From NCBI GenBank assembly GCA_903885375.1, contig CAISIK010000196.1:1-64000 (forward strand): a stretch of 64,000 nt of DNA, given 5' to 3'. Origin of the DNA: an uncultured Pseudomonadota bacterium. Lineage in GTDB: Bacteria > Myxococcota_A > UBA796 > SXON01. Shown one piece after another: positions 23,701-43,717 of the stretch. Positions within the stretch are counted from its first letter, which is position 1, and every line of letters begins with the position of its first letter. Under the pieces are notes generated by a model. That model was given only the letters and a program-made list of their open reading frames with translations, searched no databases and was not told the origin of the DNA. Made by a program: the position numbers and the translations under genes.

Positions 23701-24251
23701 AGGTGGCGCGGGCCGCGTGCGATGGGCGCATGGGCGCCGACGGCAAGGTGGAAGTGGTGGTGCTGCCGCGCCGCCGCGATGGGGAATCGCTCCCCGATCC
23801 GCTCCTCGGCACCGGCCTGCGCGACCACGTGCAGGGCTACCTGAAGCGGCGCTGCCTCATCAACGTGACCCCCGTGGTGCGGCTCGCCAGCTTCCTGCCC
23901 ATCGACATCAGCGTGACGCTCCGCCTGCGCCCCAACGCCAACCTGCTCGCCGTGCGCGAGGCCGCCCAGCGCTGGGTGGAGGCCTTCCTCGACCCCTACA
24001 TCGGCGGGTTCGACGGGACCGGCTGGCCCTTCAAGGGCACCGTGTACAGTCAGGACTTCGCGCGCATGGTGGCCGACATCCCCGACGTGCGCCACGTGAT
24101 CGACGTGCAGCTCTTCGATGTGTCGGGTGAAAAGCGGCAGCGCGGCGTTCCCGGCTGGGAAGAGGGCGAGGGCGTGCGCGAGGTGGTGCTCACCACGGCC
24201 GACCTGCTCAACGTGCGCCGCATCCGGGTGCGCACCGAGGAAGCCGAATGA
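20736..24251 (+). CDS. Baseplate J-like protein of a contractile tail / injection system
   Basis: 1,171 residues. The N-terminus has the signature of the large 'putative baseplate assembly protein' family (WTNLSDADPGMTLVQLFAWM then RLNQVPDKTYIHFLNFIGE). The C-terminal third shows the baseplate J/gp47 pattern: LTFGNGIRGRMLPVGSANV, YRAVPGARGNV, ENLLPASGGRDAET, RDRAVTQTDFAIIAQEA. Known of the family: wedge component of the baseplate in phages, extracellular contractile injection systems and related particles. Start ATG 20736 (GAGCTCG upstream, weak). Its stop overlaps the next start (ATGA). Sheath, tube and spike genes are not adjacent. Confidence 0.88.
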   Translation: MPIRPPNLDDRRYEDLLREARALIPQYTPEWTNLSDADPGMTLVQLFAWMTEMVIFRLNQVPDKTYIHFLNFIGEERKPARPASAPVTLTLKGEGGVEIPPYARCATRQREDSTAVDFVTVDGLSVHSATINRVMAVRGGQRPAVREIPFTYLRDNPSALLFAGGRGVDVFELDPVDYGPDAYTPDQFLYVSHEDLRLMDMEPDGERPLGRLRLRRGGANADNLSVAAFFQWEYPSAEGWLAVQTDLDPEESLGLPESTIITALPGIVPIDHFGSTAAFGLPEPVAASKWWLRGRLDFERWLAGRMLQDLEITWRDDRGGEERSINNWEVRATGRALEFFLQDVPPIRGGWVVRFALVDRGVPAGRTSYLPRYRWYYRRGEGWEEVPAERVRTDGTVILITGPLTDMATDGYNLRAERIETVFLQGFIPELEVELTWVRPIELSMLCGDDPRRLEPLLVDEGPWSPFQLATMMPPTIGRKWYIGSDLFENRKQEPVVVELDVVFDMNGTPIPEPSELYLLQLTYRAEDNWRVVWSENKVFTSFTFADLDGTKELDKKQRPVGARTITLQIDPKTQLKGLARHEIDGRDTTWLRFELVKASLTGQDEKKEQHPIVPRILAVRLGVQSDVGAKHYEQPMPGPRMAQVDDRAENPRLTRAITRAVGRLGEFYPFFPFVELKDENQALYLQFNKPLPRGRRHVLHVRTRGESYLPEGVEVQWEMLEAQTFGRHVWRRLHGPGEGAARPYQLTSTGTLDFPLPDPPTPGPDGFWLRARFALPPGTTIDSLPQMAPITHVLLNTVEVVNLITVRTERFSGLGVPNQTIHLRNAPLFLHDLEHERSLFARPETFPDIVVYVEEADGAVEAWNRVPDGALLTAGKDDRIFVVDATEGTLTFGNGIRGRMLPVGSANVVVDVYRAVPGARGNVAAGDINVIEGFADSVKAENLLPASGGRDAETIDEIIRRAPSLLTSRDRAVTQTDFAIIAQEASGEVARAACDGRMGADGKVEVVVLPRRRDGESLPDPLLGTGLRDHVQGYLKRRCLINVTPVVRLASFLPIDISVTLRLRPNANLLAVREAAQRWVEAFLDPYIGGFDGTGWPFKGTVYSQDFARMVADIPDVRHVIDVQLFDVSGEKRQRGVPGWEEGEGVREVVLTTADLLNVRRIRVRTEEAE

Positions 24252-25336
24252 CGCGTGCGCTCGCGCGCTACGCCCCCGCCCGGGGGAGCTCCGACTTCCG
24301 CTACCTCGAAGACGTGGTGCGGATCGGCTACCCCGTGCGCGAGGCGCAGACCTACCTCAACCGCCACCTCGGCAACCCCGTCGGCTACCGCCTCGTGGAG
24401 GCCCTCCGGGGCGAGCGCGTGGGCTGCGTGCGCTCCATCGAGGTGCAGACCGCGGCGGGCGGCGAGCCGCTCTTCATCCGCTCCACGCGGCTCCTGCCGG
24501 ACGGTTCGCCGGCGAGCCACTACACCCCCGAGGAGCTCGTCACCGTGAGCGCCGAGGTGGTCACGCCCGATGGGCGCGCCCCCGGCGCGCTGGGCGCGCG
24601 CGACCGCATCGTGCTGCACGTGCCCGTGCGCGGCTACCTCCGGTTCCTGCCCGGGCTCTACCAGGGCGCCGTTCCCGCGCAGCGGCGCGACATCGTGCGC
24701 GCCGACGAAGCCTCCGCCCGCAACTGGGGCGCCCCGCAGGCGGTGCAGGCCACCGAGGTACAGGCCTTCAACGCCGACGCCATGCGGCGCTTCCTCGCCA
24801 TCTTCCAGCACGTGATGACCACCATCACCGACCGGATCGACGGCCTCCCCCAGCTCATCGATCCCATCGCCACCGACCCGCGCTTCCTCCCCTGGATCGC
24901 GAGCTGGGTGAGCTTCCCCCTGGACAGTTCCCTCCCAATCCACCAGCAGCGCGAGCTGGTCCGCCGCGCGATCCGCCTGTACCGCACGCGCGGTACGGTG
25001 GCCGGGGTGGAGGAGATGATCCGGGTGCTCACGGCGGCGCCGGTGCGCGTGGCCGAGACCCGCGCGCCCAACGCCTTCACCCTCGGCCGCAGCACGCTCG
25101 CCGGGGGCGCTACCGTCGATGCGCGCTACCTGCGCGGCGAGCCGGCGGGGCACTTCGTGGCCGAGCCCAGCCGCCTGCCCACGTCGTTCTTCGCGCTCGT
25201 GCTCGAGCCGGCCGACAAGTTCAAGAAACGTTTCGGCGAACGCGCCCCCGGCGTGCTCCGCCGCATCTCCCAGATCGTGTCGAGCGAAAAGCCCGGCCAC
25301 GTGTCCTTCACCATCCTGTTCGACGAGGGTCGGTAG
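24248..25336 (+). CDS. Phage tail protein I-like baseplate component
   Basis: 362 residues. The N-terminal half (about 1-130) is not recognised. From about residue 133 the sequence follows tail protein I-type domains found beside baseplate J proteins: LRFLPGLYQ, then FQHVMTTITDRIDGLPQLID, DPRFLPWIASWVSFPLD, RELVRRAIRLYRTRGTVAGVEEMI. Role by family: wedge tip partner of baseplate J. The start overlaps the preceding stop by four bases and the next gene follows after 2 bp, so the three are one operon. Confidence 0.8.
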   Translation: MTRALARYAPARGSSDFRYLEDVVRIGYPVREAQTYLNRHLGNPVGYRLVEALRGERVGCVRSIEVQTAAGGEPLFIRSTRLLPDGSPASHYTPEELVTVSAEVVTPDGRAPGALGARDRIVLHVPVRGYLRFLPGLYQGAVPAQRRDIVRADEASARNWGAPQAVQATEVQAFNADAMRRFLAIFQHVMTTITDRIDGLPQLIDPIATDPRFLPWIASWVSFPLDSSLPIHQQRELVRRAIRLYRTRGTVAGVEEMIRVLTAAPVRVAETRAPNAFTLGRSTLAGGATVDARYLRGEPAGHFVAEPSRLPTSFFALVLEPADKFKKRFGERAPGVLRRISQIVSSEKPGHVSFTILFDEGR

Positions 25337-25338
25337 CC

Positions 25339-26280
25339 GTGCAGCCCAAGAACTACTTCCAGCTCAGCCGCCTGCGCGCCTTCGAGGGCCTCTGCCTCAC
25401 CGCCCGCGACCTTCAGGACGAACAGTCCTACCACCGCCGCAACCTCCAGCGGCACGTGCTCTACATGCACGGGCACGGCATCGTGCAGGGCCTCCAGGTG
25501 GAGATCGAGCAGCGCAAGGACAAGTACGTAGCGGTCATCCAGGGCGGCTACGGCGTGACCCGCATCGGCCAGGGCGTGCTCCTCGCCGATGCCGTGGCCG
25601 TGCCCCTCGAAGTGCCGCGGCAGGATGGCGAGTACATGCTCTGGCTCTTCCACGTGGAAGGCGCCGACGAGGCCGAGCTGCGCCCCATCTTCGACACCGG
25701 GGAACAATCCTCCTCGCGCGTGAAGGAGACCTGCGCCCCCCGCCTGCACGCGATTGACGAAGACCAGCCCGACGCCATCGCGCTCACCCGCATCAACGTG
25801 CGCCTCGGCCGCATGGTGCAGGTGCTCCTCCCGGTGCCCCGCGCCGGTCGGCAGGCCCGCGCCGCCGAGAGCTACCTCAAGCCGCGCGTGCTCGAGTTCA
25901 TCCGCCTCAACAAGAGCGTGGTCCAGAACCTCTTCCGCACCTCCCAGCTCTCCGAGCTCGACCTCGGCGTGCTCGGCTTCTTCGGCTCGCTGGTGGCGAG
26001 CGAGTTCCAGCTCATCGAGGAGGGCACGAGCGACCGCGTGCTCTACCGCACCGCCGGCTCGCTCATCGCCTACGCCCACGACTTCTACAACCCGCTCTCC
26101 CGCTCGCTCGAACGGGTCGACAAGTTCAAGGAGTTCGTGCGCCGCGTGAACGCCGAGGTGCCCGGCGCCGATCAGGGTGACGAGATCTGGCTCCGATGGT
26201 TCGACAAGTTCGAGCGCCTCCTCCAGCCGCTCGGCAAGATCGCCGAGGAGCTCGAGAAGACGGTGGAAGCGCAGCGGTAG
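25339..26280 (+). CDS. Unknown protein of the baseplate operon
   Basis: 313 residues from GTG 25339, two bases after the tail protein I-like stop. Not confidently recognised. The N-terminus NYFQLSRLRAFEGLCLTARD followed by an EQ-Y-H-R segment and GHGIVQGLQVE recalls small proteins often encoded beside contractile-injection baseplate genes (pattern: ...LTARDL..EQ.YH...HG.GVV.GL.V). It also weakly recalls the TssK N-terminus of type VI systems; that link is only a pattern impression. The C-terminal half is helical and charged (KFKEFVRRVNAE... KIAEELEKTV). Inferred: baseplate or attachment component. Confidence 0.65.
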   Translation: MQPKNYFQLSRLRAFEGLCLTARDLQDEQSYHRRNLQRHVLYMHGHGIVQGLQVEIEQRKDKYVAVIQGGYGVTRIGQGVLLADAVAVPLEVPRQDGEYMLWLFHVEGADEAELRPIFDTGEQSSSRVKETCAPRLHAIDEDQPDAIALTRINVRLGRMVQVLLPVPRAGRQARAAESYLKPRVLEFIRLNKSVVQNLFRTSQLSELDLGVLGFFGSLVASEFQLIEEGTSDRVLYRTAGSLIAYAHDFYNPLSRSLERVDKFKEFVRRVNAEVPGADQGDEIWLRWFDKFERLLQPLGKIAEELEKTVEAQR

Positions 26281-26295
26281 GGCCGCTGATTTGGG

Positions 26296-26345
26296 GCGAA
26301 TCGGGTCTGCCCCACCTCGGGGCGGGCCGGCACGCCCCGATTCGC
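26296..26345. terminator. Nested hairpin between convergent baseplate operon and galU
   Basis: An outer 10-bp perfect stem GCGAATCGGG (26296-26305) / CCCGATTCGC (26336-26345) encloses an inner GCCCC-acctc-GGGGC (26309-26323). Located between the two convergent stops, it likely ends transcription in both directions, though no T-run is present. Confidence 0.5.
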
Positions 26346-26355
26346 GGCGCCTGGC

Positions 26356-27207
26356 CTACGCGAACCGCGCGCAGAGCGCCCGGGCGGCCTCGCCGTACTC
26401 CGGGTGGCGCGTGGCGTAGTGGAGCTGCGCTTCGAGGAGGCCCACGGGATTGCCTGTGTCGAAGTGGGCGCCCGAGAAGACGTGCCCGTGCGCGAGCGGG
26501 AGCCGGGCGAGGGCGTCGGTGAGCTGGATCTCGCCGCCGGCACCGGGAGGGGTGCTGCGAAGGAGGTCGAAGATGGCGGTGGGCAGCACGTAGCGACCCA
26601 CGATCGACAGTGCGCTGGGCGCCTCGGCGGGCGCCGGCTTCTCCACCATCCGCTCGATGCGCATGCGGTCGGGGCGCACCATCGGGCCGGCGCAGATGCC
26701 GTAGCGGTTGGTGCGCTCGCGCGGCACGTTCTTCAGCGCCACGACCGCGCCGCCCTCTTCGGCGTGCACCCGCAGGAGCTGGCCCACGACCGGCTCGGCG
26801 GCATCCACGATGTCGTCGGGGAGGATCACCACGAAGTCCTGGCCACGCAGGGCAGGCTCCGCGCAGAGCACCGCGTGGCCGAGGCCGCGCATGGCATCCT
26901 GACGCACGCTCACCACGCGGGCGAGGCTGGCCACCCGGCGCACCTCGGCGAGGAGCGACAGCTTGCCGGCGGCTTCGAGCGTGGCCTCCAGCGCCGGGGA
27001 GCGGTCGAAGTACTCCTCGAGCGCGCCCTTGCCCCGCGACGTGACGAACACGAAATCAGTGATGCCCGCCGCGACCGCCTCCGCCACGACGTACTCCAAG
27101 CACGGCCGATCCACGATCGGCAGCAGCTCCTTGGGCACCGCCTTGGTGAGCGGAAGGAAGCGCGTGCCGAGGCCTGCAACCGGCAGGACCGCCTGGGTAA
27201 CCGCCAC
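26356..27207 (-). CDS. galU: UTP--glucose-1-phosphate uridylyltransferase
   Basis: 283 residues, GTG start. The nucleotidyltransferase signature is intact: AVLPVAGLGTRFLPLTKAVPKE at the N-terminus (kept short here: GLGTRFLP, TKAVPKEL), LPDDIVDA metal-binding region, MVEKPAP with the substrate-binding Lys, and GEIQLTDAL near the C-terminus. It forms UDP-glucose for LPS, exopolysaccharide and glycogen routes. It starts three bases after the dksA stop, so it is co-transcribed with that stringent-response regulator. The C-terminal tail is slightly shorter than E. coli GalU. Confidence 0.94.
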   Translation of the reverse strand: MAVTQAVLPVAGLGTRFLPLTKAVPKELLPIVDRPCLEYVVAEAVAAGITDFVFVTSRGKGALEEYFDRSPALEATLEAAGKLSLLAEVRRVASLARVVSVRQDAMRGLGHAVLCAEPALRGQDFVVILPDDIVDAAEPVVGQLLRVHAEEGGAVVALKNVPRERTNRYGICAGPMVRPDRMRIERMVEKPAPAEAPSALSIVGRYVLPTAIFDLLRSTPPGAGGEIQLTDALARLPLAHGHVFSGAHFDTGNPVGLLEAQLHYATRHPEYGEAARALCARFA

Positions 27208-27210
27208 CGA

Positions 27211-27576
27211 CTACATGTCCCGGCTGGAACGCTCGAGCTGCTCCAGCTCCGTCTTGCAGTCGATGCAGTGGGTGGCCACGGGGCGCGCCATGAGGCGCTT
27301 CTCGGCGATCTCGTTGCCGCAGCTCACGCAGGTGCCGTAGTCGCCCACATCGAGCCGGGCGATGGCCTCCTTGATCTTGTGGATCAGGACCCGCTCACGG
27401 TCGCGGATGCGGAGCTGGAAGTCGCGATTCGACTCCATCGAGGCGAGGTCGATGGCATCGGCGAGGTTTTCTTTTTCGTCGGTGAGGTCACCCAGGGTGG
27501 CGCCAGCTTCGCTCAGGAGCGCGCGGAGGCGCTCATTGAGCAGGTTGCGAAAGAACTCAAGACGTTCCGGCTCCAT
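27211..27576 (-). CDS. dksA: DksA/TraR family transcription regulator
   Basis: 121 residues with a coiled-coil N-terminal part, the tip region DAIDLA matching the DxxDxA motif that enters the RNA polymerase secondary channel, a basic RIRDRER helix, and a four-Cys zinc finger (CVSC, 17 residues, CIDC) at about 84-108. It is 30 residues shorter at the N-terminus than E. coli DksA, as in many deltaproteobacterial versions. Known role: potentiates ppGpp control of transcription initiation. First gene of the dksA-galU pair; divergent from the beta-barrel gene. Confidence 0.9.
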   Translation of the reverse strand: MEPERLEFFRNLLNERLRALLSEAGATLGDLTDEKENLADAIDLASMESNRDFQLRIRDRERVLIHKIKEAIARLDVGDYGTCVSCGNEIAEKRLMARPVATHCIDCKTELEQLERSSRDM

Positions 27577-27657
27577 GACGACCCCCGTGACACCGTGATC
27601 AAGCGTTACACGCCGGCAGGTTGCCTGCGCATGACCAGTTCTTTACTACTGCCCGCC

Positions 27658-28551
27658 ATGCCACTCCGCAAGCTCGCGCCGCTCCTCGGGAGTGCTTTGT
27701 TGCTCGGCCGCGCGCTTTCGGCCCATGCCGAGGAGCTGCCCGGTGCGCGATCGGCGGGCCGCGGCGGCGTCGGGCTCGCGAACCCCACCGACGTGGGCGA
27801 GGTGGCCACCAACGTGGCGGCCGTGGCGCTCGGCGAACGCTACGACCTCGTGGCCGGCGGCGCCTACGGGCCCGACGACACCTGGCTCGGTCGCGTGGCT
27901 GCTGCCGACTCCCGCACCAGCCTCGTGACCCTCGGCGCCACCTACACCTACCGGCTGGATGATGTGGAGCCGCCGCTGAGCGCGCTGCCCGGCTGGGTGC
28001 TCGATGGCGACGAGCTCACCAACACCACCTCCCACCAGGGTTTCGCGGTCGGCATCGCCTACCCCTTCCTCGATCGCCGCATGTCGATCGCCGCCACCGG
28101 CCGCTACGACTGGCGCGACTCCGAGCAGGAGGGAAGCTCCGATGCCTTCAACTTCGGCGTGAGCGCCGCCGGCAAGCCGTCGGAGGCCTTCACGGTGGCG
28201 CTCGGCATCAACAACGCGCTGGACCTCGGCTACCCCGACAGCGAGCGCACCGTGGATGTAGGCGCGCGCTGGGAGCCGGGGCCCTTCCTCGGCCTCGAAG
28301 GGGCCCTGCGCACCGAATGGATGGGCGACCCCTTCGAGGAGTCCATCGCCGAGCACGTGGGCGCCGACGTGGGCCTGACCGAGTGGCTGCGCCTCAGCGC
28401 CGGTTGGCAGCACGATGACGGCGTGCACACCCTCGGCGGCGGCATCAGCCTCGTGAGCGACAAGGCCGACCTCGACTACTCCCTGCAGGGCGAGCTCGAT
28501 GCCGACCCCGCGCGCCTGTGGCACTCGCTCGACCTGCGCATTCACTTCTGA
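27658..28551 (+). CDS. Predicted outer-membrane beta-barrel protein
   Basis: 297 residues from ATG 27658 (an in-frame ATG at 27631 is an alternative). A signal peptide (MPLRKLAPLLGSALLLGRA, cleavage near AHA-EE) is followed by alternating amphipathic strands rich in Gly and aromatic residues (LVTLGATYTYRL, FAVGIAYPF, LSAGWQHDD) and ends LDLRIHF with a terminal Phe, the usual outer-membrane insertion signal. No specific family was recognised; the GVGLANPTD / VATNVAAVAL start resembles FadL/OmpP1-like or PorV-like barrels. It is transcribed divergently from dksA. Confidence 0.7.
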   Translation: MPLRKLAPLLGSALLLGRALSAHAEELPGARSAGRGGVGLANPTDVGEVATNVAAVALGERYDLVAGGAYGPDDTWLGRVAAADSRTSLVTLGATYTYRLDDVEPPLSALPGWVLDGDELTNTTSHQGFAVGIAYPFLDRRMSIAATGRYDWRDSEQEGSSDAFNFGVSAAGKPSEAFTVALGINNALDLGYPDSERTVDVGARWEPGPFLGLEGALRTEWMGDPFEESIAEHVGADVGLTEWLRLSAGWQHDDGVHTLGGGISLVSDKADLDYSLQGELDADPARLWHSLDLRIHF

Positions 28552-28602
28552 GCGGGCGGCACAAAAGCTGGACGACGTACCGCCCCGCGCGTAGCTGAGC
28601 GG

Positions 28603-29145
28603 ATGCCCACGCGCCCTCCCCGCCCGCTCACCCCCGAGAGCGTGAAGCGCAGCGTGCTGGCCTACGTGCAGCGCTACTCCGCCCCGCGCGCGCACACCCG
28701 CCGCCGCTGGATGCAGCGCATCCAACGGCAGGGCACCACCACCGGCGAGGACACCGCGCCGCTCGTGGCGGCGCTCGATGCGGTGCTCGACCTCGGCGAG
28801 CGGTACCGCTTCGTCGACGATGCCGCGTTCGCGGCCTCCCGCAGCCGGCGCGCGCTCGCGCGCGGCGTGGCCCCCGGCCGGGTGCAGGCGCAGCTCACCG
28901 CCAAGGGCGTCTCCCGCGCGCTCGCGGCCGAGGCCGTGGCGGCGGAGGGCGGTCCCGACGCGGGAGTGGCCGCCGCCTTCGCCTACGCGCGGCGGCGCCG
29001 GCTCGGCGTGTGGCGGGCGCCCGGCGAGCGGAAGGAGCACCACCAGCGTGATCTCGCCGCCCTCGCCCGGGCCGGCTTCGGCTACGCCCTCGCGCTGCGC
29101 GCGCTGGCGGGGGAGCCCGAGGAGGAGGTCGAGGAGGAAGAGTGA
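28603..29145 (+). CDS. recX: RecX family regulatory protein
   Basis: 180 residues of Arg/Ala-rich helices with the RecX pattern: YVQRYSAPRAHTRRRW, then YRFVDDAAFAASRSRRALAR (the FiDDxxyA motif), GVAPGRVQAQLTAKGVSRAL, and a third repeat RRRRLGVW... RDLAALARAGFGYALALRAL. RecX proteins bind RecA filaments and modulate recombination and SOS. It has an acidic tail (EEEVEEEE). recA is not adjacent and no LexA-like box was found in the 51-bp upstream gap. The stop is four bases from the convergent protease gene. Confidence 0.85.
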   Translation: MPTRPPRPLTPESVKRSVLAYVQRYSAPRAHTRRRWMQRIQRQGTTTGEDTAPLVAALDAVLDLGERYRFVDDAAFAASRSRRALARGVAPGRVQAQLTAKGVSRALAAEAVAAEGGPDAGVAAAFAYARRRRLGVWRAPGERKEHHQRDLAALARAGFGYALALRALAGEPEEEVEEEE

Positions 29146-29149
29146 GCGC

Positions 29150-30196
29150 TCAGGCCCGCAGGAGCAGCACGAGCGGCGGGGCAAGGGCCGTGAGCACGCA
29201 CCCCATCAGGTAGAGCGTGTGCACCGGGCGCACCTTCCCGGTTCGCAGGGCCCGCCAGGCCGCCGTGCGCACATGCGGCGTGCCGATGAGGTCGCCGAGG
29301 GCGTGGGCGCCGTCGTTGTCGAGGAGGAAGGGCCAGCCGGTGAGCAGCGTGATGCCGAGGCCCACCGCGGCGAAGGCGCGCGGGAGCGCCACCGCCTCCA
29401 CCGGAAGCGCGCATGCCACGGTGGCGGCCAGGGCCGCCAGAAGGAGGCTCGTGCCCGGCCCGGCGAGGGCCACCACGGCGTGCTGGGCGCGGGTGCCGAG
29501 GTACATGTCGGTGGTGTCCACGTAGGCGCCGCGCAGCCCGATGGCCATGCCGCGCACCCGTCGCCCGAAGCCGACCACCGCCACCGCGTGGGCCAGCTCG
29601 TGGAGGACGACGTGCCCCACGACGGCGAGCGCGAGGAGCGGCGCCCGATCGGCGAGGGAGGTGGGGTCCACCCGCTGGTCGATCCACGCCGCGTAGGCCC
29701 CCATGCCGATGAGACCCACCGCGACGGGAAGGTTCCAGACCGTCAGGAGCGGGCCCAGCACGCGCCACACGGCCGCCGCGAGGTCGTGGGCTCCGCTCCA
29801 CGTGAACTCCCGACGCAGCCACGCCACGTGGGCGAACCGCTTGCGAAGGAAGCCCGCCGGCTCCACCTCCACCAGCCCGGCGCTCCGGAGCGTCTGGATG
29901 AAGCCCGCCACCCGCGAGACCGGCAGCGCGCCGAACGTCACGAAGTAGCTGGTGGCGATCTCGGCCACGGTGGCCCGGCCATCGATGAGCCCCCACAGGT
30001 GGCGCTCCTCGGGGCCGAGCCGCAGGTACACGCGCCGATCGGGCGTGGTGAGCACCCACGACCCGTCCACCTCGGTCAGGTGGGCCTCGCAGGGGCGGGG
30101 CCGCATCTGGAGCCAGGTCATGCCCGGGTCGAGGCTGCGCAGCGCGAAGCTGCCGCCTTCCCCACGCATCACGAGTTCGAGGGGGGCAGGGCGCAT
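29150..30196 (-). CDS. PqqD-like domain fused to M50 membrane zinc metalloprotease
   Basis: 348 residues. The N-terminal about 110 residues contain a PqqD-like winged-helix (RVYLRLGPEERHLWGLIDG, TVAEIATSYF, LRSAGLVE), the domain that binds RiPP leader peptides. The remainder is polytopic, with the site-2 protease zinc motif HELAH at about 199-203 and the third-ligand region WPFLLDNDGAHAL at about 288-300. Known: PqqD-M50 proteins occur in peptide-maturation loci. Inferred: binds the leader of the 77-residue peptide encoded four bases upstream and cleaves or exports it. Last gene of the three-gene operon. Confidence 0.82.
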   Translation of the reverse strand: MRPAPLELVMRGEGGSFALRSLDPGMTWLQMRPRPCEAHLTEVDGSWVLTTPDRRVYLRLGPEERHLWGLIDGRATVAEIATSYFVTFGALPVSRVAGFIQTLRSAGLVEVEPAGFLRKRFAHVAWLRREFTWSGAHDLAAAVWRVLGPLLTVWNLPVAVGLIGMGAYAAWIDQRVDPTSLADRAPLLALAVVGHVVLHELAHAVAVVGFGRRVRGMAIGLRGAYVDTTDMYLGTRAQHAVVALAGPGTSLLLAALAATVACALPVEAVALPRAFAAVGLGITLLTGWPFLLDNDGAHALGDLIGTPHVRTAAWRALRTGKVRPVHTLYLMGCVLTALAPPLVLLLRA

Positions 30197-30200
30197 CAGC

Positions 30201-30434
30201 TCAGCACACGTACTCGCCGCGCGCGAGGAACTCGGACGTGAAGGCGGCCGAGAAGGAGCGCACCCGCTCCGGGTCGCAGGTGGCCGACTCGATGGCGGCG
30301 ATGGTCACCTCGTCGAGCTGGTAGCCCTCGCGCATCAGCGTGCCGCGCACGTCCGCCACGAGGGCCTTTCGGAACTCCGCGTCAATGAGCGCGCGGCCGA
30401 CGATGGTCTGCAGAACAGAGGGCATGGCGGACAT
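30201..30434 (-). CDS. NHLP/nitrile-hydratase-leader-like small peptide, candidate RiPP precursor
   Basis: 77 residues from ATG 30434 (GGAG five bases upstream); a second ATG at 30425 is less well placed. Residues 7-50 follow the leader-like pattern of the nitrile hydratase leader peptide clan (LQTIVGRALIDAEFRKALVA, then LMREGYQLDEVTIAAIE), close to what is called the Os1348-type NHLP family. The remaining about 25 residues start at Cys53 and end ARGEYVC (Cys77), so a putative core is bracketed by the only two Cys. No GG or AG cleavage motif is seen. Its position between an isoprenoid-synthase-fold enzyme and a PqqD-M50 protease supports a precursor role. An alternative is a small accessory protein. 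Confidence 0.7.
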   Translation of the reverse strand: MSAMPSVLQTIVGRALIDAEFRKALVADVRGTLMREGYQLDEVTIAAIESATCDPERVRSFSAAFTSEFLARGEYVC

Positions 30435-30508
30435 GGAGACTCCGGGTTCACTCCTTGGATCGGACAGGAGCGCGACCGACGTGAGGGGGGTTGCGACGGT
30501 CGTCGGCC

Positions 30509-31414
30509 TCAGCCCGCGAGCAGGTGCGCGAGCCGAAGCAGGCTGACCCGCGACCGGAGCTCCTGCAGCCGCGCGCGGCGCGCCACCGCGAAGGCCTCGA
30601 ACCGCCGCAGACCGAGCTCGCGGGCGGGCTCGAGGCATCCGTGCAGGTGCACGTCGGCCGCGGTGAGCATGTCCTCGAGGATCGGGGAGGCCACGAGCGC
30701 GTTGCCCACCTCGGAGAGCGCGGCGCCCGGCCCCGCCAGCTCGCGCGCCTGCGAGAGGAGGTAGGTGTTCGCGCCGCTGGCGAGGTCACGCTCCCAGCCG
30801 AGCACGTCGTTCACGCACCCGTAGGACTGCGCGAGCCGGTGCACCAGCTCGGCGACCGCCCCCACCCCCATCCAGTCGCCGGACGCCGACATGACCGCGT
30901 AGAGCGGCACCTCGGCCATCGCGCACTTCCGGGCGTGGTGCCCGAACGCCTCGGCGTCGTACCCATCGGCCCGGAGCAGCTGCCGGCGCTCCACCTCGGT
31001 GAACTCCGAAAACGTGACCCAAGCCCGGCGGGCAAGGGGCTCGAAGCGGGCATCGGTATGCCGGCGCCAAAGATCGAGCGCATCCCACAGGAGCACGTTT
31101 CCGAGGAGCAGCATCGGCGGGTTGCCGCGGGTGCCTGGCTCGTCGATGACGTTGTCCTGGATGCGGACGTAGGCGTACGCGAGCGCGGTCGCTTCGAGCA
31201 GATCGAGCTGCACATCCGTGGAGACCTGGTGCGGCATCCAGAGCGGCAGGTGCATGAGCGGCGCCGCGTCGGGCTGGCTGAAGTACCCGGGGCCGGCCCA
31301 GAGCAGGAAGGCCTCGCCCTGCCCGCGAAGCTCGCCGGGCAGGCCCGCCACCCGCTCCTGCATGCGGCGAAACACCCGACTCAGCCTTTCCTGGTTCTCC
31401 TCGTAAACGTGCAC
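30509..31414 (-). CDS. Class I isoprenoid-synthase-fold enzyme
   Basis: 301 residues from GTG 31414; the open frame continues upstream without a better start. All-helical. The first metal motif is read as RIQDNVIDE (DxxxDE in place of DDxxD). The second is NDVLGWERD followed by LASG, matching the terpene-synthase NSE pattern (N/D)Dxx(S/T/G)xxx(E/D). Both are placed as in class I prenyltransferases and terpene cyclases. Known of the fold: ionises prenyl diphosphates with Mg2+. Inferred: makes or transfers an isoprenoid, possibly onto the peptide encoded 74 bp downstream. The nearest lipid-modifying neighbour genes are more than 15 kb away. Confidence 0.72.
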   Translation of the reverse strand: MHVYEENQERLSRVFRRMQERVAGLPGELRGQGEAFLLWAGPGYFSQPDAAPLMHLPLWMPHQVSTDVQLDLLEATALAYAYVRIQDNVIDEPGTRGNPPMLLLGNVLLWDALDLWRRHTDARFEPLARRAWVTFSEFTEVERRQLLRADGYDAEAFGHHARKCAMAEVPLYAVMSASGDWMGVGAVAELVHRLAQSYGCVNDVLGWERDLASGANTYLLSQARELAGPGAALSEVGNALVASPILEDMLTAADVHLHGCLEPARELGLRRFEAFAVARRARLQELRSRVSLLRLAHLLAG

Positions 31415-31469
31415 GATGCTTCCCCCGTCGCCCTCATCGGCCCCGGGAGGGCGGGCTGTAGGGCGTGCG

Positions 31470-31551
31470 CCGCTGGCGGCCCGGCCCACCCCGCGCCGAA
31501 ACCCGCCCTGCCCACGCCCACCCCGGGGCCGGGCAGACGCGGGTTTCCCCG
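31470..31551. repeat. 82-bp direct repeat, copy 1
   Basis: Identical over all 82 bases to 34919-35000, same orientation, 3,449 bp apart. It contains a strong imperfect hairpin: GAAACCCGC (31497-31505 region) pairs with GCGGGTTTC near the end, with an inner GCCC/GGGC stem. It lies 59 bp beyond the stop of the lipoprotein gene at 31611 and upstream of the isoprenoid-synthase-fold gene. It could be one end of an inserted block or a dispersed terminator-like repeat. Confidence 0.97.
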
Positions 31552-31610
31552 AAGGGCGCCCACCGCCGAATTACCCCGAGGCGCCATGGGCCAGCCCTGA
31601 TTTCGGCGCC

Positions 31611-32825
31611 CTACTCCGCGGGGAACTCTCCCGTCCACATGTAGTAGGTCGACACCCCCAGCGGCCACCCGTCAATCCAGAAGACCGAGGCCACCGTGCC
31701 ATCCCAGGAAGCGGCGTAGGGGTACGCGTAGCCGCCCTCGAAGGACAGGGAACATCCGATGGGGTTCGAATCGGAGTCCACCCGGCTGAGCACCACCTCG
31801 GCATGCAGATCGTCGTATGGCGCGAAATCGCGTTGCCAAACTACGAGGGCATCGTCCGCCGCCCCCACGATTGCAGGGCCGACCGCGAGAGCGCGGCCGC
31901 AGAGCTCCCACTCGTCGCCCTTGCAGCTCCATATTGGGCTACCGACCGAGATCGGCTGCAGCGACCGGTCGAAAGATTCAAGCCACAACGCCCCACGGTC
32001 ACCATAGTCACCCTCTTGATAATAGGCGCGGTACCATGACGTTGCGTCACGAATCCCGATGGGGGTCGAGGACACCGCAGGGTCCTCAACCGTGAGAACG
32101 TGGCCGGTAGGATCGAGGATGGCAATCGGGGCGTTCACGCCGCTCAGGGCCGTGCCTGACGCGTTGGTGGCCGGCCAGAGGGTGGAGGGGTACCACGCTT
32201 CGGACAGGAGGAGCGGTGTGGTCGCCGAGTCCACGTCGATGCCCAGCGGCGTATACCACAAGTCAGCCGCGTACCTGTCCTCCTCCGACTGCCGCTGCCC
32301 CGCGACCATGACCACCAGCCCCTCCGCCGACTCGATGAGCGCCGGGATACCAACCATGGCGTACCGCCCCGGAATGGTCACCCGCGCCCGGGGAACGGGC
32401 CTCGCGATGCCCGACGCCAGCACGTCTACTTCCACGGCAAGCGTACCGTCGTCCAAATGTCGGCTCTGCATAAAGTACCACTCGCCGCCCACCAGCGCGA
32501 TCGCGGCCGGCTTGCTGCTCGTGACCCCCGTCTCGGAGAGGTCGAAGCGCGCGAGCTCAGTGCCGTCCGAAGCGAGGTCCAGCACGGCCTGATCCTGGAA
32601 CATCGGTACGTACCAGCCGCCGCCAGGCTTGGGCTGGGGTGTCCCGTCGATGAAACGAACCGCGACACTGAAGTCAGGCTCGGGCTGTTCGCCACAGATC
32701 GGGGCCCCCCCGAAGATTGCATCCGATCCCGAATCGACGGTCTCTGAGGAACAACCGAGTGCCAGCACCGCCACCCACACCGGCGCGGTGGAACAACCTA
32801 CCCGGCTACCCGACGCTGTCGGCAT
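31611..32825 (-). CDS. Predicted lipoprotein of unknown function
   Basis: 404 residues. A signal ends in the lipobox LALGC (Cys25 from ATG 32825); an internal GTG giving MWVAVLALGC would create the very short signal seen in other lipoproteins of this window. The mature part is beta-rich with regularly spaced hydrophobic strands and Asp/Gly turns (e.g. GIDVDSATTPLLL, SEAWYPSTLWPATNA, VVWQRDFAPYDDL), suggestive of a beta-propeller, but no family was recognised. It overlaps the end of the upstream gene by 20 bp. GC content is visibly lower than in the surroundings. Last gene of the block bounded by the 82-bp repeats. Confidence 0.7.
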   Translation of the reverse strand: MPTASGSRVGCSTAPVWVAVLALGCSSETVDSGSDAIFGGAPICGEQPEPDFSVAVRFIDGTPQPKPGGGWYVPMFQDQAVLDLASDGTELARFDLSETGVTSSKPAAIALVGGEWYFMQSRHLDDGTLAVEVDVLASGIARPVPRARVTIPGRYAMVGIPALIESAEGLVVMVAGQRQSEEDRYAADLWYTPLGIDVDSATTPLLLSEAWYPSTLWPATNASGTALSGVNAPIAILDPTGHVLTVEDPAVSSTPIGIRDATSWYRAYYQEGDYGDRGALWLESFDRSLQPISVGSPIWSCKGDEWELCGRALAVGPAIVGAADDALVVWQRDFAPYDDLHAEVVLSRVDSDSNPIGCSLSFEGGYAYPYAASWDGTVASVFWIDGWPLGVSTYYMWTGEFPAE

Positions 32826-34260
32826 CGCCGAACGCGTAGACGTAATCCGCCTCCGCCCCCCGGGCCTTCAGTCCCGCCATGGCCGTTCGGAAGTCACGCA
32901 GCTTCACCAGATCGCCGCTCGTCAGCCTTCGCCTGGCCTTCACGTGGAGAGGGCTGGACCGACCGGGCTCGCTCGACGGGATGTACCCAAGTCGGAGTGA
33001 ACACAGCACGGCCTCCCCGAAGAGACACTCGAAACCACGCGCGACCAGCTGCGCCTCGGTCGCCTCGGTCCACTCGCTTTGAAGGCCCATCTTGGCCACG
33101 CCCGTCATCATGTTGCCCAGATAGCTGACCGCACGGCCCGGGTTGCCCGCCTCCGCGCCCGCCGTGGTTTGCATGGCGGCCGGTCCGACCTCATATTCTC
33201 CGTTCGCGCCGAACTGGGCCTGGTAGTAGGGTGTTCCCGCTGGCTTCCCGGCTGCCGTCCACATGAGATACGGAAATGCCGTCCTTGTCCACTCTGAAAG
33301 CGACGCCGCCTTGCCGAACGCACTGTCCATCCCCGCGGGATACTCCCTTGTGTTGCCGGGATATCCGTAGTTCTTCGATGCCACTCGGCCCGTGATGAGC
33401 CGGGCGCGAACATCCGTCACGCACGACATGAACTGTTGGAGTCGTTCGCCAGCCTCGGCCCGATCGCCGCCGGAGTCCCACAGCTGTTCCAGGACGGAAT
33501 CCAGCGCATCATCGTCATTCCAATCGTCCCCCGGGTTAAACCGGTCCAGCGGGTCGGGGTACACGGATGGGTGGAGCGTGACGCCCACCCAGTACCGGAC
33601 CCGAATGCTGGAGTCACCACGCTTCTCCACCTTGTACAAGGCGAAGAACTGCACCACCGCCAGAAGCCAGACACTGTGGTCGTAGTTGGTGGTGCCAGTA
33701 GCGTTCTTCCAACCTGAGGTTGGAAAGAGACGCCCGGACGCCACGTCGGCCGATCCCTCCTCGACCTTGCCGGCGTCCTCTTGCGTACGAAGGTAGGGTG
33801 ACGGACAGGCGACATGCAGGTACAACCAGTCCATGCCCAGACCATCGCTCTCGGCTGTCAGCGCCGCGCCCATGGACGTGTAGCGCTCGAAGAAGAAGGA
33901 CGGCGTGGCGTTGTACACGCAATCCGTGTTCACGTTCACGACATTGGACAAGCCAGATTCCTTCCCGTACACTTCGTGGTCCGGCGCGTCATCGAGCGCC
34001 GAGTAATCGAAAAACGAATCAAACGAGCGCCCCGGCACCTCCTTCACGCGGCGAACCAGCACCGGATCCATGGTCGGATCTTCGGTATTGTACGGACTGG
34101 CCCAAACCTTGCAGCCAATATCGTCGTACTGGTTCTCGGGAGCCTGCGCCCTCGCGGCGCTACTCGCATTCGCGGCCCGGGCCCTCCCCACCGCACAGCT
34201 CACACAACCGCACCCATCCGCCGTTTGCAGGGCCGCGGACCCGCACCCGCAGCCGCTCAA
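32806..34260 (-). CDS. Unknown protein with Cys-rich N-terminus
   Basis: 484 residues if it starts at TTG 34260, which overlaps the preceding stop (TTGA) in the same way other genes here overlap. The longer open frame upstream is antisense-like noise. The N-terminus is packed with Cys (SGCGCG, GCGCVSC) and followed by an Ala-rich stretch; the body has aromatic and Asp-rich segments (FNPGDDWNDDDALDSVLEQ, SFDSFFDYSALDD). No domain was recognised. Lower GC than the window average and many non-preferred codons suggest recent acquisition. Middle gene of the three-gene block; an internal start such as Met at about residue 62 cannot be excluded. Confidence 0.6.
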   Translation of the reverse strand: MSGCGCGSAALQTADGCGCVSCAVGRARAANASSAARAQAPENQYDDIGCKVWASPYNTEDPTMDPVLVRRVKEVPGRSFDSFFDYSALDDAPDHEVYGKESGLSNVVNVNTDCVYNATPSFFFERYTSMGAALTAESDGLGMDWLYLHVACPSPYLRTQEDAGKVEEGSADVASGRLFPTSGWKNATGTTNYDHSVWLLAVVQFFALYKVEKRGDSSIRVRYWVGVTLHPSVYPDPLDRFNPGDDWNDDDALDSVLEQLWDSGGDRAEAGERLQQFMSCVTDVRARLITGRVASKNYGYPGNTREYPAGMDSAFGKAASLSEWTRTAFPYLMWTAAGKPAGTPYYQAQFGANGEYEVGPAAMQTTAGAEAGNPGRAVSYLGNMMTGVAKMGLQSEWTEATEAQLVARGFECLFGEAVLCSLRLGYIPSSEPGRSSPLHVKARRRLTSGDLVKLRDFRTAMAGLKARGAEADYVYAFGDADSVG

Positions 34261-34682
34261 CCCCAGGCCTTCGCGAGCAGCCAGAAGGAGACCACCCCGG
34301 TGCGCACACCGCTCACGCCGTTCTTGTTCTTGAGCCGGATGCGCAGTCGGCTGTGCGGCAGGAAGTTCGTCGTCGTGGTGTACGGCGTGGCGCGGAGCGG
34401 GAGGTTGTTCTCGTTCATGTTCGCCACGAGCTCCGCTGCGTTCAGTTCCTGCTCGCGGGTGGTGCCCGGCACGAGCAGCAGACCCACCTCGAGCTCGTTG
34501 TTGAGCGGGCCTTCGGACAGCACCCCCACCGGCGCGATCCACTCGGCCCCGAAGATCGCCGCCATCAGGTCGGCGCTCACCGGAACCTCCACGTAGGTGT
34601 AAACGCCATCGGCGCCCGTGGCCCCGCTGGTGGAGACTCGCAAGGAGCGTACAACGGGGAAGGTTCGGAGAAGAGAGGCCAT
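34257..34682 (-). CDS. Unknown 141-residue protein
   Basis: ATG 34682 was chosen because the sequence becomes protein-like there (MASLLRTFPVVRSLRVSTSG). It reads as a compact beta-rich domain: YTYVEVPVSADLMAAIFGAE, then LEVGLLLVPG, LRIRLKNKNG, VVSFWLLAKAWG. No signal peptide, no recognised family. GC is similar to the chromosome, unlike the two genes after it. First gene of the block; the stop overlaps the following TTG start. A different frame starting at GTG 34819 crosses its 5' end and is a possible but weak alternative. Confidence 0.6.
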   Translation of the reverse strand: MASLLRTFPVVRSLRVSTSGATGADGVYTYVEVPVSADLMAAIFGAEWIAPVGVLSEGPLNNELEVGLLLVPGTTREQELNAAELVANMNENNLPLRATPYTTTTNFLPHSRLRIRLKNKNGVSGVRTGVVSFWLLAKAWG

Positions 34683-34797
34683 GCGTGTCCATCGCCGGCC
34701 TCCTGCCGCGAACCCGGGATGGGTGCGCCCTGCGGTGCCAACCACGGTAGCGTAGAGGTCGTCGAAGCCGCCAGCAAGGCGTGGGCCTCGGCCTCAG

Positions 34798-34819
34798 TCA
34801 CGCTCACGCTCACGCTCAC
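34798..34819. repeat. Hexanucleotide tandem repeat (GCTCAC)
   Basis: Three to four copies of cgctca in a row, read on the minus strand as GTGAGC repeats, each offering GTG start codons in the leader of the unknown operon. Copy-number change by slippage would alter spacing between the AT-rich island and the first gene. Confidence 0.7.
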
Positions 34820-34848
34820 TTATATGGTGCAACCTGAATTGTTTAGGC

Positions 34849-34865
34849 TGTCAAGTTCATGTCAA
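34849..34865 (-). promoter_or_regulatory. Tandem TTGACA boxes, promoter or activator site candidate
   Basis: Two TTGACA hexamers on the minus strand (34865-34860 and 34854-34849) are 11 bp apart, one helical turn, and lie in the AT-rich island about 170 bp upstream of the unknown operon. They could be alternative -35 elements or a paired regulator site. A TATAAG follows further down (about 34824-34819) but spacing is not ideal for either box. Confidence 0.35.
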
Positions 34866-34918
34866 GAGACGAGGCAGGGGACAGCGCCGAGCGCCGCCCG
34901 ACCCCTCACCCGTCGACT

Positions 34919-35000
34919 CCGCTGGCGGCCCGGCCCACCCCGCGCCGAAACCCGCCCTGCCCACGCCCACCCCGGGGCCGGGCAGACGCGGGTTTCCCCG
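34919..35000. repeat. 82-bp direct repeat, copy 2
   Basis: Perfect copy of 31470-31551. It abuts the stop codon of the adenylate cyclase gene (35001-35003), so on the minus strand the hairpin begins directly after that stop and may terminate its transcript. Confidence 0.97.
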
Positions 35001-36314
35001 CTATCCCTCCCCTTCCCCATCCCGAACGACCGCCCAGATCGTCGGCGTTCCGGACTTTCCTTTCACCTTCACCGGCGGCATCTTCACGCAGCGGAACTCC
35101 CGCGCCACGGCCCCCTGGACTTCGTCGCTGATCACCAGCGAGCGGCCCAGGTCGCGGCAAAGGCCCTGCAGGCGGGCGGCGAAGTTCACGGTGTCGCCGA
35201 TCACGGTGAACTCGAGGCGGTCGGGGGTGCCGATGTTGCCGGCGATCACGTCGCCATGCGCGATGCCCACGCCGATGTGCACGCCGAACTCGCCGCCGAC
35301 GCCCGCCGCATCGAGCTCCCGAACCCGTTCGAGCATGGCCATGGCCGCGCGGACCGCACGCAGGCTGTCGTCGGGCATCTCGCGCGGCACCCCGAACACC
35401 GCGAGGAGGCCGTCGCCGAGGAACTTGTCGAGCGTGCCGCCGTTCGCGAAGACGATCGGGACCAGCGCGCCGAAGATCGTGTTCAGAAACTCGACCACCA
35501 CCTCCGGACGTGCGGCCTCGGAGCGGCGCGTGAAGTCGCGGATGTCGACGAACATCACCGCCGCCCGCCGGCGGCTACCGCTCAGCCCCATCGCGGCGGG
35601 GTTCTCGGCCACGAACTCGGCGACCGACGGGGACAGGTACTTCCGGAACTGCGCCTGCTGCCGTTCGGCCTCCTGGCGCTGCAGCGTGTCGGTGGCGGAG
35701 CGCACCCACTGCTGCCGCAGGAGCACGCCCAGCGCCCCGTACACCAGCCCGAGCACGAAGAGGAACCCCACGATCGTGTACTGGTCGGGGAGGGAGACCG
35801 CCTCCTTGCCGTAAACGGCCGCCTCCGACGGGATGACGTGACCCCGGTCGACCGCGAGTCGAAGGAGCGCGAGTCGCTGAAGCGCCGCCAGGAGGCCCGC
35901 GAAGCAGGTGACGCGGAAGTTCCCGCCCAGCGCGGAGAGGAACATGACCATCGGGTAGAGCGCCACGAGGATCGGCGCGAGGAGCATCTCGTAGGCGCCG
36001 CTGTAGTTGAGGTAGCTCCCGGCCGCGAAGCCGCTCACGAAGCTCACGTCCACCGCCGCGTTCACCCACTTCGTCCAGCCGGGCGCCGCACCACCCCGGG
36101 TGCGCCGGTAGATGAAGCCGGCCCACGCGATGAAGACGAGCGTGACGCCCGAGACCGCGAGGATGTTCTCCGGGCTGTTGCTCGCCGAGTTGCCGAGGAG
36201 CGCGAGGAGGCCGAGCCCGCAGAAGACCAGGCGGACCTGGGCGGCGATGTGCTCGAAACGGGCGGCCTCCGCGGCCACCAGCCCAGCCACCCGCGTTTGA
36301 TCCGGTACGCCCAT
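35001..36314 (-). CDS. Membrane class III adenylate cyclase
   Basis: 437 residues from ATG 36314. Residues about 25-225 hold about six hydrophobic helices; the cytoplasmic C-terminal half is a cyclase homology domain. Metal-binding Asp in MFVDIRDF and FLGDGLLAV, base-selecting Lys in LDKFLGD, and transition-state residues in VIGDTVNFAARL are all present. The Lys/Asp pair favours ATP over GTP. It makes cAMP, which the tandem cyclic-nucleotide-binding proteins encoded near 43 kb could read (inference). Its ATG overlaps the stop of the giant kinase gene (TGATG), so it is translated after it. Confidence 0.9.
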   Translation of the reverse strand: MGVPDQTRVAGLVAAEAARFEHIAAQVRLVFCGLGLLALLGNSASNSPENILAVSGVTLVFIAWAGFIYRRTRGGAAPGWTKWVNAAVDVSFVSGFAAGSYLNYSGAYEMLLAPILVALYPMVMFLSALGGNFRVTCFAGLLAALQRLALLRLAVDRGHVIPSEAAVYGKEAVSLPDQYTIVGFLFVLGLVYGALGVLLRQQWVRSATDTLQRQEAERQQAQFRKYLSPSVAEFVAENPAAMGLSGSRRRAAVMFVDIRDFTRRSEAARPEVVVEFLNTIFGALVPIVFANGGTLDKFLGDGLLAVFGVPREMPDDSLRAVRAAMAMLERVRELDAAGVGGEFGVHIGVGIAHGDVIAGNIGTPDRLEFTVIGDTVNFAARLQGLCRDLGRSLVISDEVQGAVAREFRCVKMPPVKVKGKSGTPTIWAVVRDGEGEG

Positions 36315-40282: not shown

Positions 40283-40362
40283 GGCCGCCGAGTGTATCCG
40301 AAACGCACCGGGCGATGTCGCTCCGCGCGAGCGGCCCGCCGGGTTAGCTCAGCCGGCTACAC

Positions 40363-42696
<2,334 letters not shown>

Positions 42697-42699
42697 GGT

Positions 42700-43182
42700 T
42701 CAGCCGGTGAGCTCGCCGGTGGCTTCGAGCCCCCACGCGATCGTCTGCCGGACACGCAGGTTCGTCTGCCGCACCTTCTCGGCGAGGTCCACGTAGAGGG
42801 CCCTGGCCACATGCGCGAAGAGCGGCCGATCGGTCACCAGCATCCGCCGCAGGCGCTCCACATCGAGCACGAGCACCACGCCATCGGTCGACATCAGGAC
42901 GCTGGCAGTGGCCGACTGCGCGTCGACGAGGTCGATCTCGCCGAGGTGATCGCCCGTGCCCACCCGGGCCACGAGCGCTTCGGTGGAGCCCGCCACCCGC
43001 TTGCAGATGAGGGCCTCGCCCTCCACCAGCATGAACAGGCTGGCCGAGGGCTCCCCTTCGCGGATGAGCACCTCGCCCACGCCCACCCGGCGCTCGTCGA
43101 GCCAGGGCAGGAGCCGCTCCATCGTGGCCAGCGGCAGCGTGGCGAACAGGCGGACGACGGAGAGGCGGGCGGCGGTGACCAT
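42700..43182 (-). CDS. Cyclic-nucleotide-binding (CAP_ED) domain protein
   Basis: 160 residues: one cNMP-binding beta-roll (VLIREGEPSASLFMLVEGEA, GDHLGEIDLV) followed by a C-terminal helix. The phosphate-binding cassette reads GEIDLVDAQSATASV, where a canonical cAMP site would have GE-x-x-L-x-x-x-x-R-(S/T)-A, so the Arg is replaced and nucleotide binding is doubtful. No DNA-binding domain. Its ATG overlaps the stop of the related upstream gene (TGATG), so the two are coupled and probably form a heteromer or act together. Confidence 0.82.
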   Translation of the reverse strand: MVTAARLSVVRLFATLPLATMERLLPWLDERRVGVGEVLIREGEPSASLFMLVEGEALICKRVAGSTEALVARVGTGDHLGEIDLVDAQSATASVLMSTDGVVLVLDVERLRRMLVTDRPLFAHVARALYVDLAEKVRQTNLRVRQTIAWGLEATGELTG

Positions 43183-43610
43183 CAGCTTTCTCCGGGGTCG
43201 ACGGCAGCGGACTCGAGCGACCAGCGCACCGCCTCGACGAGGCGTGCGTTGGCCATGCGGACCTTCCCCGCGAGCGACTTGAGCATCGCCCAGGCCACGT
43301 CGGGCTCGCCCACGAGGCCATCCATGCCGCTCCGCTCGACGCGCCACAGCACGCTTCGCTCCTCGGCCGTGACGGTGGCGGCAGCCGGGCCGGGCGAGAA
43401 CACGGCCAGCTCGCCGAAAGACGCGCCGGGGCCGAGCTCGGCGAGCACGGACTCGAGCTCGCCACGCACCGACTGCGACACGCTCAGCTTGCCGTGCAGC
43501 ACGATGAACAGCGCATCCTGGGGCAGGCCCTCCCAGACGACCACCTGTCCCGCCGCGAGGTGCACCTCGGTGGCGAAGGGGGCGAGGGAGTCGAGCCAGG
43601 ATTCGTTCAC
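43182..43610 (-). CDS. Cyclic-nucleotide-binding (CAP_ED) domain protein
   Basis: 142 residues from GTG 43610; a longer frame to 43700 exists but its N-terminus is Arg-rich and not domain-like. One CAP_ED beta-roll (QVVVWEGLPQDALFIVLHGK, GASFGELAVFSPGPAAATV) and a C-terminal helix that resembles the end of the downstream paralogue (NARLVEAVRW versus NLRVRQTIAW). The cassette FGELAVFSPGPAAATV lacks the canonical Arg. No effector domain. First gene of the tandem pair, which looks like a duplication. Confidence 0.78.
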   Translation of the reverse strand: MNESWLDSLAPFATEVHLAAGQVVVWEGLPQDALFIVLHGKLSVSQSVRGELESVLAELGPGASFGELAVFSPGPAAATVTAEERSVLWRVERSGMDGLVGEPDVAWAMLKSLAGKVRMANARLVEAVRWSLESAAVDPGES

Positions 43611-43650
43611 ACTTCGGCGATCGGATCGGTTGCCCGCCGGCGTGAGGCGA

Positions 43651-43667: not shown

Positions 43668-43717
43668 AACCCGGAACCGGCGCCACCGGATACTGTCCAA
43701 GACAGCAGAGGTTCCCC

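Follow-up and report, generated by a model that had tools for sequence, protein, structure and literature searches.

In the ComQXPA system, the receptor is the histidine kinase ComP and the regulator is ComA. The quorum-sensing peptide of this Bacillus system, ComX, is modified by ComQ, an enzyme of the isoprenoid-synthase superfamily (PMC10853753, PMC13290415), and PalQ/PalX/PalP of Paenibacillus alvei combines a precursor of the nitrile hydratase leader peptide (NHLP) type with a peptide prenyltransferase of the same superfamily and a signalling gene, a histidine kinase (PMC10853753). In the polycyclic-isoprenoid ribosomally synthesised and post-translationally modified peptides (RiPPs) of the ChrPC/NctPC type, a prenyltransferase and then a terpene cyclase act on the peptide, the P domain of ChrPC being similar to trans-isoprenyl diphosphate synthases (trans-IDS) (PMC13290415). 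Membrane M50 metalloproteases mature other RiPPs, as with the daptide protease (NCBIfam), YydH/LiaK of epipeptides and TglG/TmoG of pearlins (PMC10885120), and Os1348 of Pseudomonas sp. Os17 is a small protein of the NHLP clan (PMC7726476). The locus presented here lies in a window of 64,000 nucleotides (the whole stretch analysed, from contig CAISIK010000196.1 of an uncultured bacterium) and consists of three adjacent genes, A, B and C, together with a nucleotide cyclase gene, Y, and, in some relatives only, a squalene-hopene-cyclase-like gene, X. The trio belongs to a known kind, the prenylated or terpenylated RiPP systems, and is real, conserved and well delimited. That Y-A-B-(X)-C is one functional unit which makes, and possibly senses, an isoprenoid-modified peptide is held with a probability of roughly 0.48.

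Genes A, B and C and their conservation

Gene A (31414-30509; 301 aa, GTG start) encodes a trans-IDS-like protein, a putative peptide prenyltransferase; gene B (30434-30201; 77 aa) a peptide of the Os1348/NHLP clan, a putative precursor or scaffold; and gene C (30196-29150; 348 aa) a PqqD-like domain joined to an M50 intramembrane metalloprotease. All three are on the minus strand, with gaps of 74 bp between A and B and 4 bp between B and C, just as a first-pass annotation made from the sequence had described them. The motifs it had pointed out are also present: QDNVID in A, within the first Asp-rich motif RIQDNVIDEP (D87, D91; 31136..31165, minus strand), NDVLGWERD as the second motif of A (D203, D210; 30785..30811, minus strand), the zinc-binding HELAH of C (29588..29602, minus strand), and Cys53 and Cys77 in the window's B.

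Co-occurrence was surveyed in 377 genomes of the same phylum. Profile matches were found for A in 33 genomes (E ≤ 1e-5), for B in 34 (E ≤ 1e-3), for the membrane part of Y in 25 (E ≤ 1e-6, one match per genome) and for C in 52 (E ≤ 1e-10). With bit-score limits that were set by hand after the scores had been seen, 27 genomes were kept for A (at least 100 bits), 22 for B (at least 50 bits), 22 for Y and 19 for C (at least 140 bits), so that 6, 12, 3 and 33 genomes were dropped, respectively; the 33 dropped for C had mostly matches in long open reading frames (ORFs) of other M50-type proteins. Within these limits, A and B share 20 genomes, B and C 19, and B and Y 19, and all 19 genomes with C at 140 bits or more also have B at 50 and A at 100 bits or more. 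Two genomes have B but lack A, and in both of them B lies within 0.7 kb of a contig start. Homologues of the peptide occurring widely without the other two genes had been named beforehand as the finding that would speak against a precursor. The outcome was mostly in favour of a precursor: A is present in 20 and C in 19 of the 22 B genomes, but family f7 has A and B without a detected C, and 12 further genomes gave weak B matches, only one of which (G040) adjoins an A.

A, B, C and Y stand together in 19 stretches, 11 from the window's own family f1 (window included), 4 from f4 and 4 from f14, a count that includes one locus with a Y remnant (L036), one with C cut by the contig end (L040) and one with broken A and X (L094). 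In this last locus (genome G290), stops or frame changes break A and X but the reading frames of B, C and Y are intact, a sign of either decay or sequencing error. The order A-B-C is kept in all 11 f1 loci; gene order and strands differ across f1, f4 and f14, yet the linkage persists, and in the A tree the cassette falls on two separate branches. A, B and C are conserved and under purifying selection, dN being lower than dS for each gene in each of the 4 pairs tested. The trio had initially been taken as the complete unit. The three genes are indeed linked, but the unit is larger, with Y in all 19 loci and X in f4 and f14. Among 36 places with an A gene, 22 have a B match beside them.

One relative from the window's genus (G001) has the kinase gene that precedes Y in the window, followed by the PqqD-like part of C, and Y, A and B were not found in its genome. 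This fits a simultaneous loss of Y, A, B and C's M50 part, although the assembly has a completeness of 76% and may contain an error. The PqqD-like remnant (L163:6997-7647) lies directly behind the kinase gene, and no M50 domain was found in it. A further sample, a metagenome-assembled genome (MAG) titled Klebsiella pneumoniae, bears the cassette and an A paralogue on two contigs (L076 and L077; CAMAWH010000021.1 and CAMAWH010000023.1), otherwise seen in deltaproteobacterial MAGs; the record is probably mislabelled.

Gene A alone matched no model of Pfam or NCBIfam, and its single-sequence search of the PDB gave one chance-level match and nothing credible. Pfam applied to 28 A-like members gave weak matches, to polyprenyl_synt in 3 (best E 0.003) and to Terpene_syn_C_2 in 3 (best E 0.019). 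A broader profile of 28 A-like proteins (A3) was more informative, with isoprenyl diphosphate synthases as 24 of its 27 PDB matches (best E 3.2e-4); the PDB search with a narrow profile (A1) was discarded, its matches being mostly biased (TAL effectors, lactoferrins and the like). Using hhalign, 31 A-like proteins were aligned with 26 polyprenyl synthetase ORFs of relatives, which had been selected from 30 loci by DDxxD pattern and length without individual checking, at 97.2% and E 4e-11 over 194 columns. In this alignment, QDNVIDE falls opposite HDDxxD and NDVLG opposite DDVLD. With the narrower A1 profile, which included a paralogue without B (L043), the values were 92.9% and E 3.6e-7, and four control profiles stayed below 0.4% each against A. 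All 28 aligned proteins, without exception, have R84, D87, D91, D203 and D210. At the profile level, the homology of A to trans-IDSs and its membership of the class I isoprenoid-synthase superfamily are therefore supported, and the first Asp motif of that group is conserved, as DNxxD in the window's family and as DDxxD in most other A-like proteins (QDDxxD in relatives).

The Gln that precedes the second motif in trans-IDS-like Trp prenyltransferases, and that has been tied to the recognition of Trp (PMC13290415), is a Gly in the window's A. Among the 31 A-like proteins, Gly is found in 15 A (f1, f14) and Gln in 16 others, the position having been matched by spacing and without a PalQ sequence for comparison. 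Canonical synthases carry Gln at this place too, so that the residue is weak evidence either way; in addition, f4 A proteins keep the Gln, yet f4 B peptides also have no Trp. In three genomes (G029, G293 and G004), an A-like domain is fused to a radical SAM/SPASM maturase domain in a single ORF (L100:7930-9978, L101:7568-9538 and L102:8318-10285). Directly after the fusion, L100 and L102 have small ORFs with a common pattern like LAxxWxxPLxxDDA, and these gave no relevant NCBIfam match.

Gene B had been read as NHLP-like. This held for NF038399 (NH_RiPP_Os17, the Os1348-family model of the NHLP clan), with 49.2 bits against a cut-off of 40, but not for the NHLP leader model TIGR03793 (21.7 against 50.9). 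The score with Frankia_peptide PF14407 (43.8) was below its gathering cut-off of 48. One B member each of f4, f14 and f7 also passed the NF038399 cut-off, and the B profile matched 8tb1 (an NHLP leader chimera) and 6lk7 (Os1348) in the PDB. The positions that do not vary across the 14 aligned B sequences are G13, R14, D18, F21, R22, L25, D28, T32, E36 and R72. Two types of tail were seen, FLxRG[ED]Yxx in 8 of the 11 f1 peptides and R[KR]AAx in all 9 of f4 and f14. A core bracketed by Cys53 and Cys77 had been proposed and was abandoned, neither Cys being conserved among 13 aligned homologues (Cys53 in none, Cys77 in 2). Prenylation of a C-terminal Trp or of a CaaX-like end was rejected as well, the tails ending in YVC, YLA, YAI, RKAAS and the like. 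Whether B is a folded subunit, another point on which the precursor had been made to depend, came out ambiguous: its closest solved relative, Os1348, is a folded six-helix homodimer with a flexible C-terminus of six disordered residues (PMC7726476).

Gene C passed the M50 model PF02163 just above its gathering cut-off (28.6 against 27.2 bits). H199, E200 and H203 of HExxH, as well as D295, are invariant in 18 of 18 proteins, so the M50 part of the proposed PqqD-M50 fusion stands, whereas the PqqD match stayed below the cut-off of PF05402 (15.5 against 23.4 bits), a model which gave no match at E ≤ 0.001 in the window's own genome. The daptide protease model NF041824 (daptide_HExxH) aligns to residues 39-319 of C with 59.9 bits, against an equivalog cut-off of 300. 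Across the family, 15 of 18 C members matched daptide_HExxH (best E 7.2e-39) and 11 of 18 matched YydH/LiaK. Judged by these models, the nearest relatives of C are RiPP-maturing proteases. The idea of a conserved unit is supported, with B as a peptide of the NHLP clan, A as a homologue of class I isoprenoid synthases and C as an M50 protease whose closest relatives act on RiPPs.

Genes Y and X and the surroundings of the locus

Gene Y (36314-35001, minus strand; 437 aa) combines a six-transmembrane (6TM)-type membrane domain, in which five to six stretches are hydrophobic, and a class III nucleotide cyclase, which scored 74.6 bits with PF00211 (gathering cut-off 21.9); it is a putative receptor or regulator. 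It accompanies A, B and C in 19 of 19 loci, one Y being a remnant, and lies upstream of A in f1 and f14 and beyond X in f4. Of the 10 PF00211 matches in the window's genome (6.0 Mb), two are at this locus, so a cyclase would be expected within 8 kb by chance at about 3% of loci, a rough estimate for this genome only, and the linkage of Y is qualified to that extent. Outside the cassette, the membrane domain was matched in G178, where the contig starts inside Y, and in G203 and G233, where A-like genes are present. A weak B match before Y in G233 (G233:C73, 12.9 bits) was unconfirmed by NCBIfam and was set aside. Two divergent A genes, L093 and L096 (G032 and G203), are directly followed by ORFs with sub-threshold NH_RiPP_Os17 scores (17.1 bits in G203 and 19.0 in G032, cut-off 40), the order in G203 being A, this ORF and Y. 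In f7 (G253 twice, G040 and G263), B adjoins cyclase or cyclase/AAA_16 genes, and A where the contig is long enough.

Gene X was present in all 9 f4 and f14 loci, including one without A or C (L041 of G033). Eight unbroken X ORFs measure 594-700 codons from stop to stop. Their profile matched squalene-hopene cyclase 2sqc in the PDB (E 3.9e-10) and, weakly, MstE (E 0.017); single members gave weak matches to Pfam SQHop_cyclase_C in 2 of 8 cases (best E 0.0051). The motif GI[PA]xDxDxLGL contains D299 and D301, which do not vary among the 8.

Upstream of Y, a kinase gene (40282-36314, minus strand) encodes a Ser/Thr kinase, cyclase-like, AAA_16 and TPR protein according to its Pfam matches. The stop codon of this gene and the start codon of Y overlap (TGATG), and the synteny of the gene is confined to f1. 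Two ORFs on the minus strand (404 aa and up to 628 aa; 31611..34692) separate Y from A and had no Pfam match. In the relative L030, A directly follows Y and these ORFs are absent, so they are read as an insertion outside the unit and were not counted as components. Downstream of C lies a convergent recX-like gene (28603-29145; Pfam RecX_HTH2). A search of window positions 26000-44000 against Rfam gave no match, promoter and terminator scans of the locus gave nothing useful, and no defence-system model matched. Between A and B, two relatives (L031:8114-9712 and L032:4727-5947) have a gene on the opposite strand which by eye resembles SGNH hydrolases (GESS, GHND); the L032 copy had no Pfam match, and the gene was rejected as a component. 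Farther away, large ORFs at 20736-26280 (plus strand) of the window resemble contractile tail or baseplate-type proteins, as judged by reading only.

Possible functions of the unit

As a single functional unit, the cassette might work as follows. B, ribosomally made and with an NHLP-type region, would serve as precursor or scaffold. The Asp motifs of A would bind an isoprenyl diphosphate, and A would, by analogy with PalQ and PalX, transfer the chain to B. In the relatives that have it, X could cyclise the chain on B in the manner of the ChrPC and NctPC C domains. C may dock B through its PqqD-like domain, and its intramembrane M50 domain may clip or export the product, to which, or to the membrane state, Y would answer. 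The fusions of A-like domains to radical SAM/SPASM maturase domains in three genomes favour this proposal.

Several observations weigh against it. All characterised trans-IDS-like peptide prenyltransferases are reported to use Trp (PMC13290415). Trp is absent from 22 of 23 B peptides, and the window's B has none; its acceptor, if any, cannot be the usual tryptophan used by enzymes such as ComQ, PalQ and the P domain of ChrPC, and this is the strongest objection. No hypervariable tail or variable core was seen in the B alignments. By profile, 14 of the 36 A places have no B: three are the radical SAM fusions, two have the sub-threshold ORFs, and nine (L043, L086, L088, L089, L095, L097, L098, L099 and L103) yielded no B by profile or pattern. 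C was not found in f7 (L090-L092 and L160, some cut by contig ends), and X was found neither in the 11 f1 loci, window included, nor in f7, when sought in the fetched stretches around the loci rather than in whole genomes. In addition, the Y membrane domain gave weak matches without the cassette in G147, G172 and G252, and the survey counts rest partly on close relatives, 11 loci being one family.

The second motif of A (NDxxGxxxD) is close to the terpene-synthase triad, so that the product of A might instead be a free terpenoid. Together with X, in loci that have it, A would then be a free-standing terpene pathway of a class I synthase and a class II cyclase. B, as a small folded regulator, and C, as a membrane protease, would be accessories, and Y would sense the terpenoid. 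The QDDxxD of relatives, the squalene-hopene cyclase match of X (E 3.9e-10) with its invariant DxD (8 of 8), the likeness of B to the folded homodimer Os1348 and the nine A-like places without any B-like ORF are all in line with this, but B still adjoins A in loci without X, radical SAM/SPASM maturase domains occur in fusion with A-like domains, and the nearest models of C are RiPP proteases, which makes a free terpene rather unlikely. The conserved C-terminus of B (8 of 11 in f1, 9 of 9 in f4 and f14) and its want of a variable core would also suit a reusable carrier, as in pearlins, where the M50 proteases TglG and TmoG cleave modified C-terminal amino acids (PMC10885120); the modification would be built on that C-terminus and C would clip off a modified residue or a very short peptide. 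This seems improbable, as the two tail types differ and no aminoacyl-tRNA-dependent ligase was noticed among the recurring cassette genes, no search having been aimed at one. Least probable is a signalling cassette without any peptide modification, in which B would be a folded adaptor linking A-like and C proteins to Y, and A a degenerate sensor of prenyl diphosphates. Although Y or cyclase/AAA proteins recur and the window's family has DNxxD as its first motif where most other A-like proteins have DDxxD, the invariance of D87, D91, D203 and D210 in A, and of HExxH and D295 in C, is as expected of enzymes.

Within the peptide-modifying unit, a more specific arrangement is conceivable but doubtful, namely a pheromone circuit of the ComX/PalX kind: A would prenylate a non-Trp residue of B, X would cyclise the chain in relatives, C would trim and export the product, and the 6TM domain of Y would bind the terpenyl-peptide and set cyclic AMP or cyclic GMP. 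To our knowledge, no such pheromone circuit with a nucleotide cyclase receptor has been reported before. Control of a class III cyclase by the 6TM domain of a quorum-sensing receptor has been described (PMC4821796), and M50 proteases cleave at the membrane for epipeptides and pearlins (PMC10885120).

Comparison with described prenylated peptide systems

The first-pass annotation knew of no described pathway for the trio, a claim that does not hold, since PalX/PalQ (PMC10853753) and ChrPC/NctPC (PMC13290415) are precedents. A literature search over titles and the starts of abstracts of open-access papers did not find the cassette itself among the papers listed; the key paper on polycyclic isoprenoid RiPPs (Hubrich et al. 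2024) was outside its reach.

The meaning of the cassette depends on which steps prove true. If A modifies B, Trp is no longer the sole acceptor of trans-IDS-like peptide prenyltransferases, which matters for peptide lipidation tools, and separate prenyltransferase and cyclase genes would be a modular route to terpenylated peptides. What the 6TM membrane domains of class III cyclases recognise is an open question (PMC4821796); if Y senses the product, the two would be a testable natural pair, encoded side by side, and would provide a natural ligand for a 6TM domain.

Against this background, PalX ends in its acceptor Trp, whereas the window's B has none, and the three-gene Pal cluster, as far as it is described in PMC10853753, has neither a PqqD-M50 gene nor X and carries a kinase in place of the nucleotide cyclase. 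The recurring genes of the present cassette are Y, A, B, X and C, plus the Ser/Thr kinase in f1, no search having been aimed at histidine kinases. In the Com system, the acceptor Trp is internal to ComX, the second Asp motif is missing from ComQ and the processing proteases are given as unknown (PMC10853753, PMC13290415). In ChrPC/NctPC, a single fused enzyme acts on a Trp acceptor (PMC13290415), unlike f4 and f14 with separate A and X; the class II terpene cyclase of such systems has no counterpart in the window, where X is missing. The daptide protease is approached by C only at a distance (59.9 against 300 bits), and the other cassette genes differ. B passes the model named after Os1348, but the Os1348 cluster comprises an acetyltransferase and other genes, with no isoprenoid gene in the passages of PMC7726476 that describe it. 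The cassette thus differs from the known prenylated RiPP systems in its acceptor, its protease, the separate cyclase gene of its relatives and its nucleotide cyclase partner.

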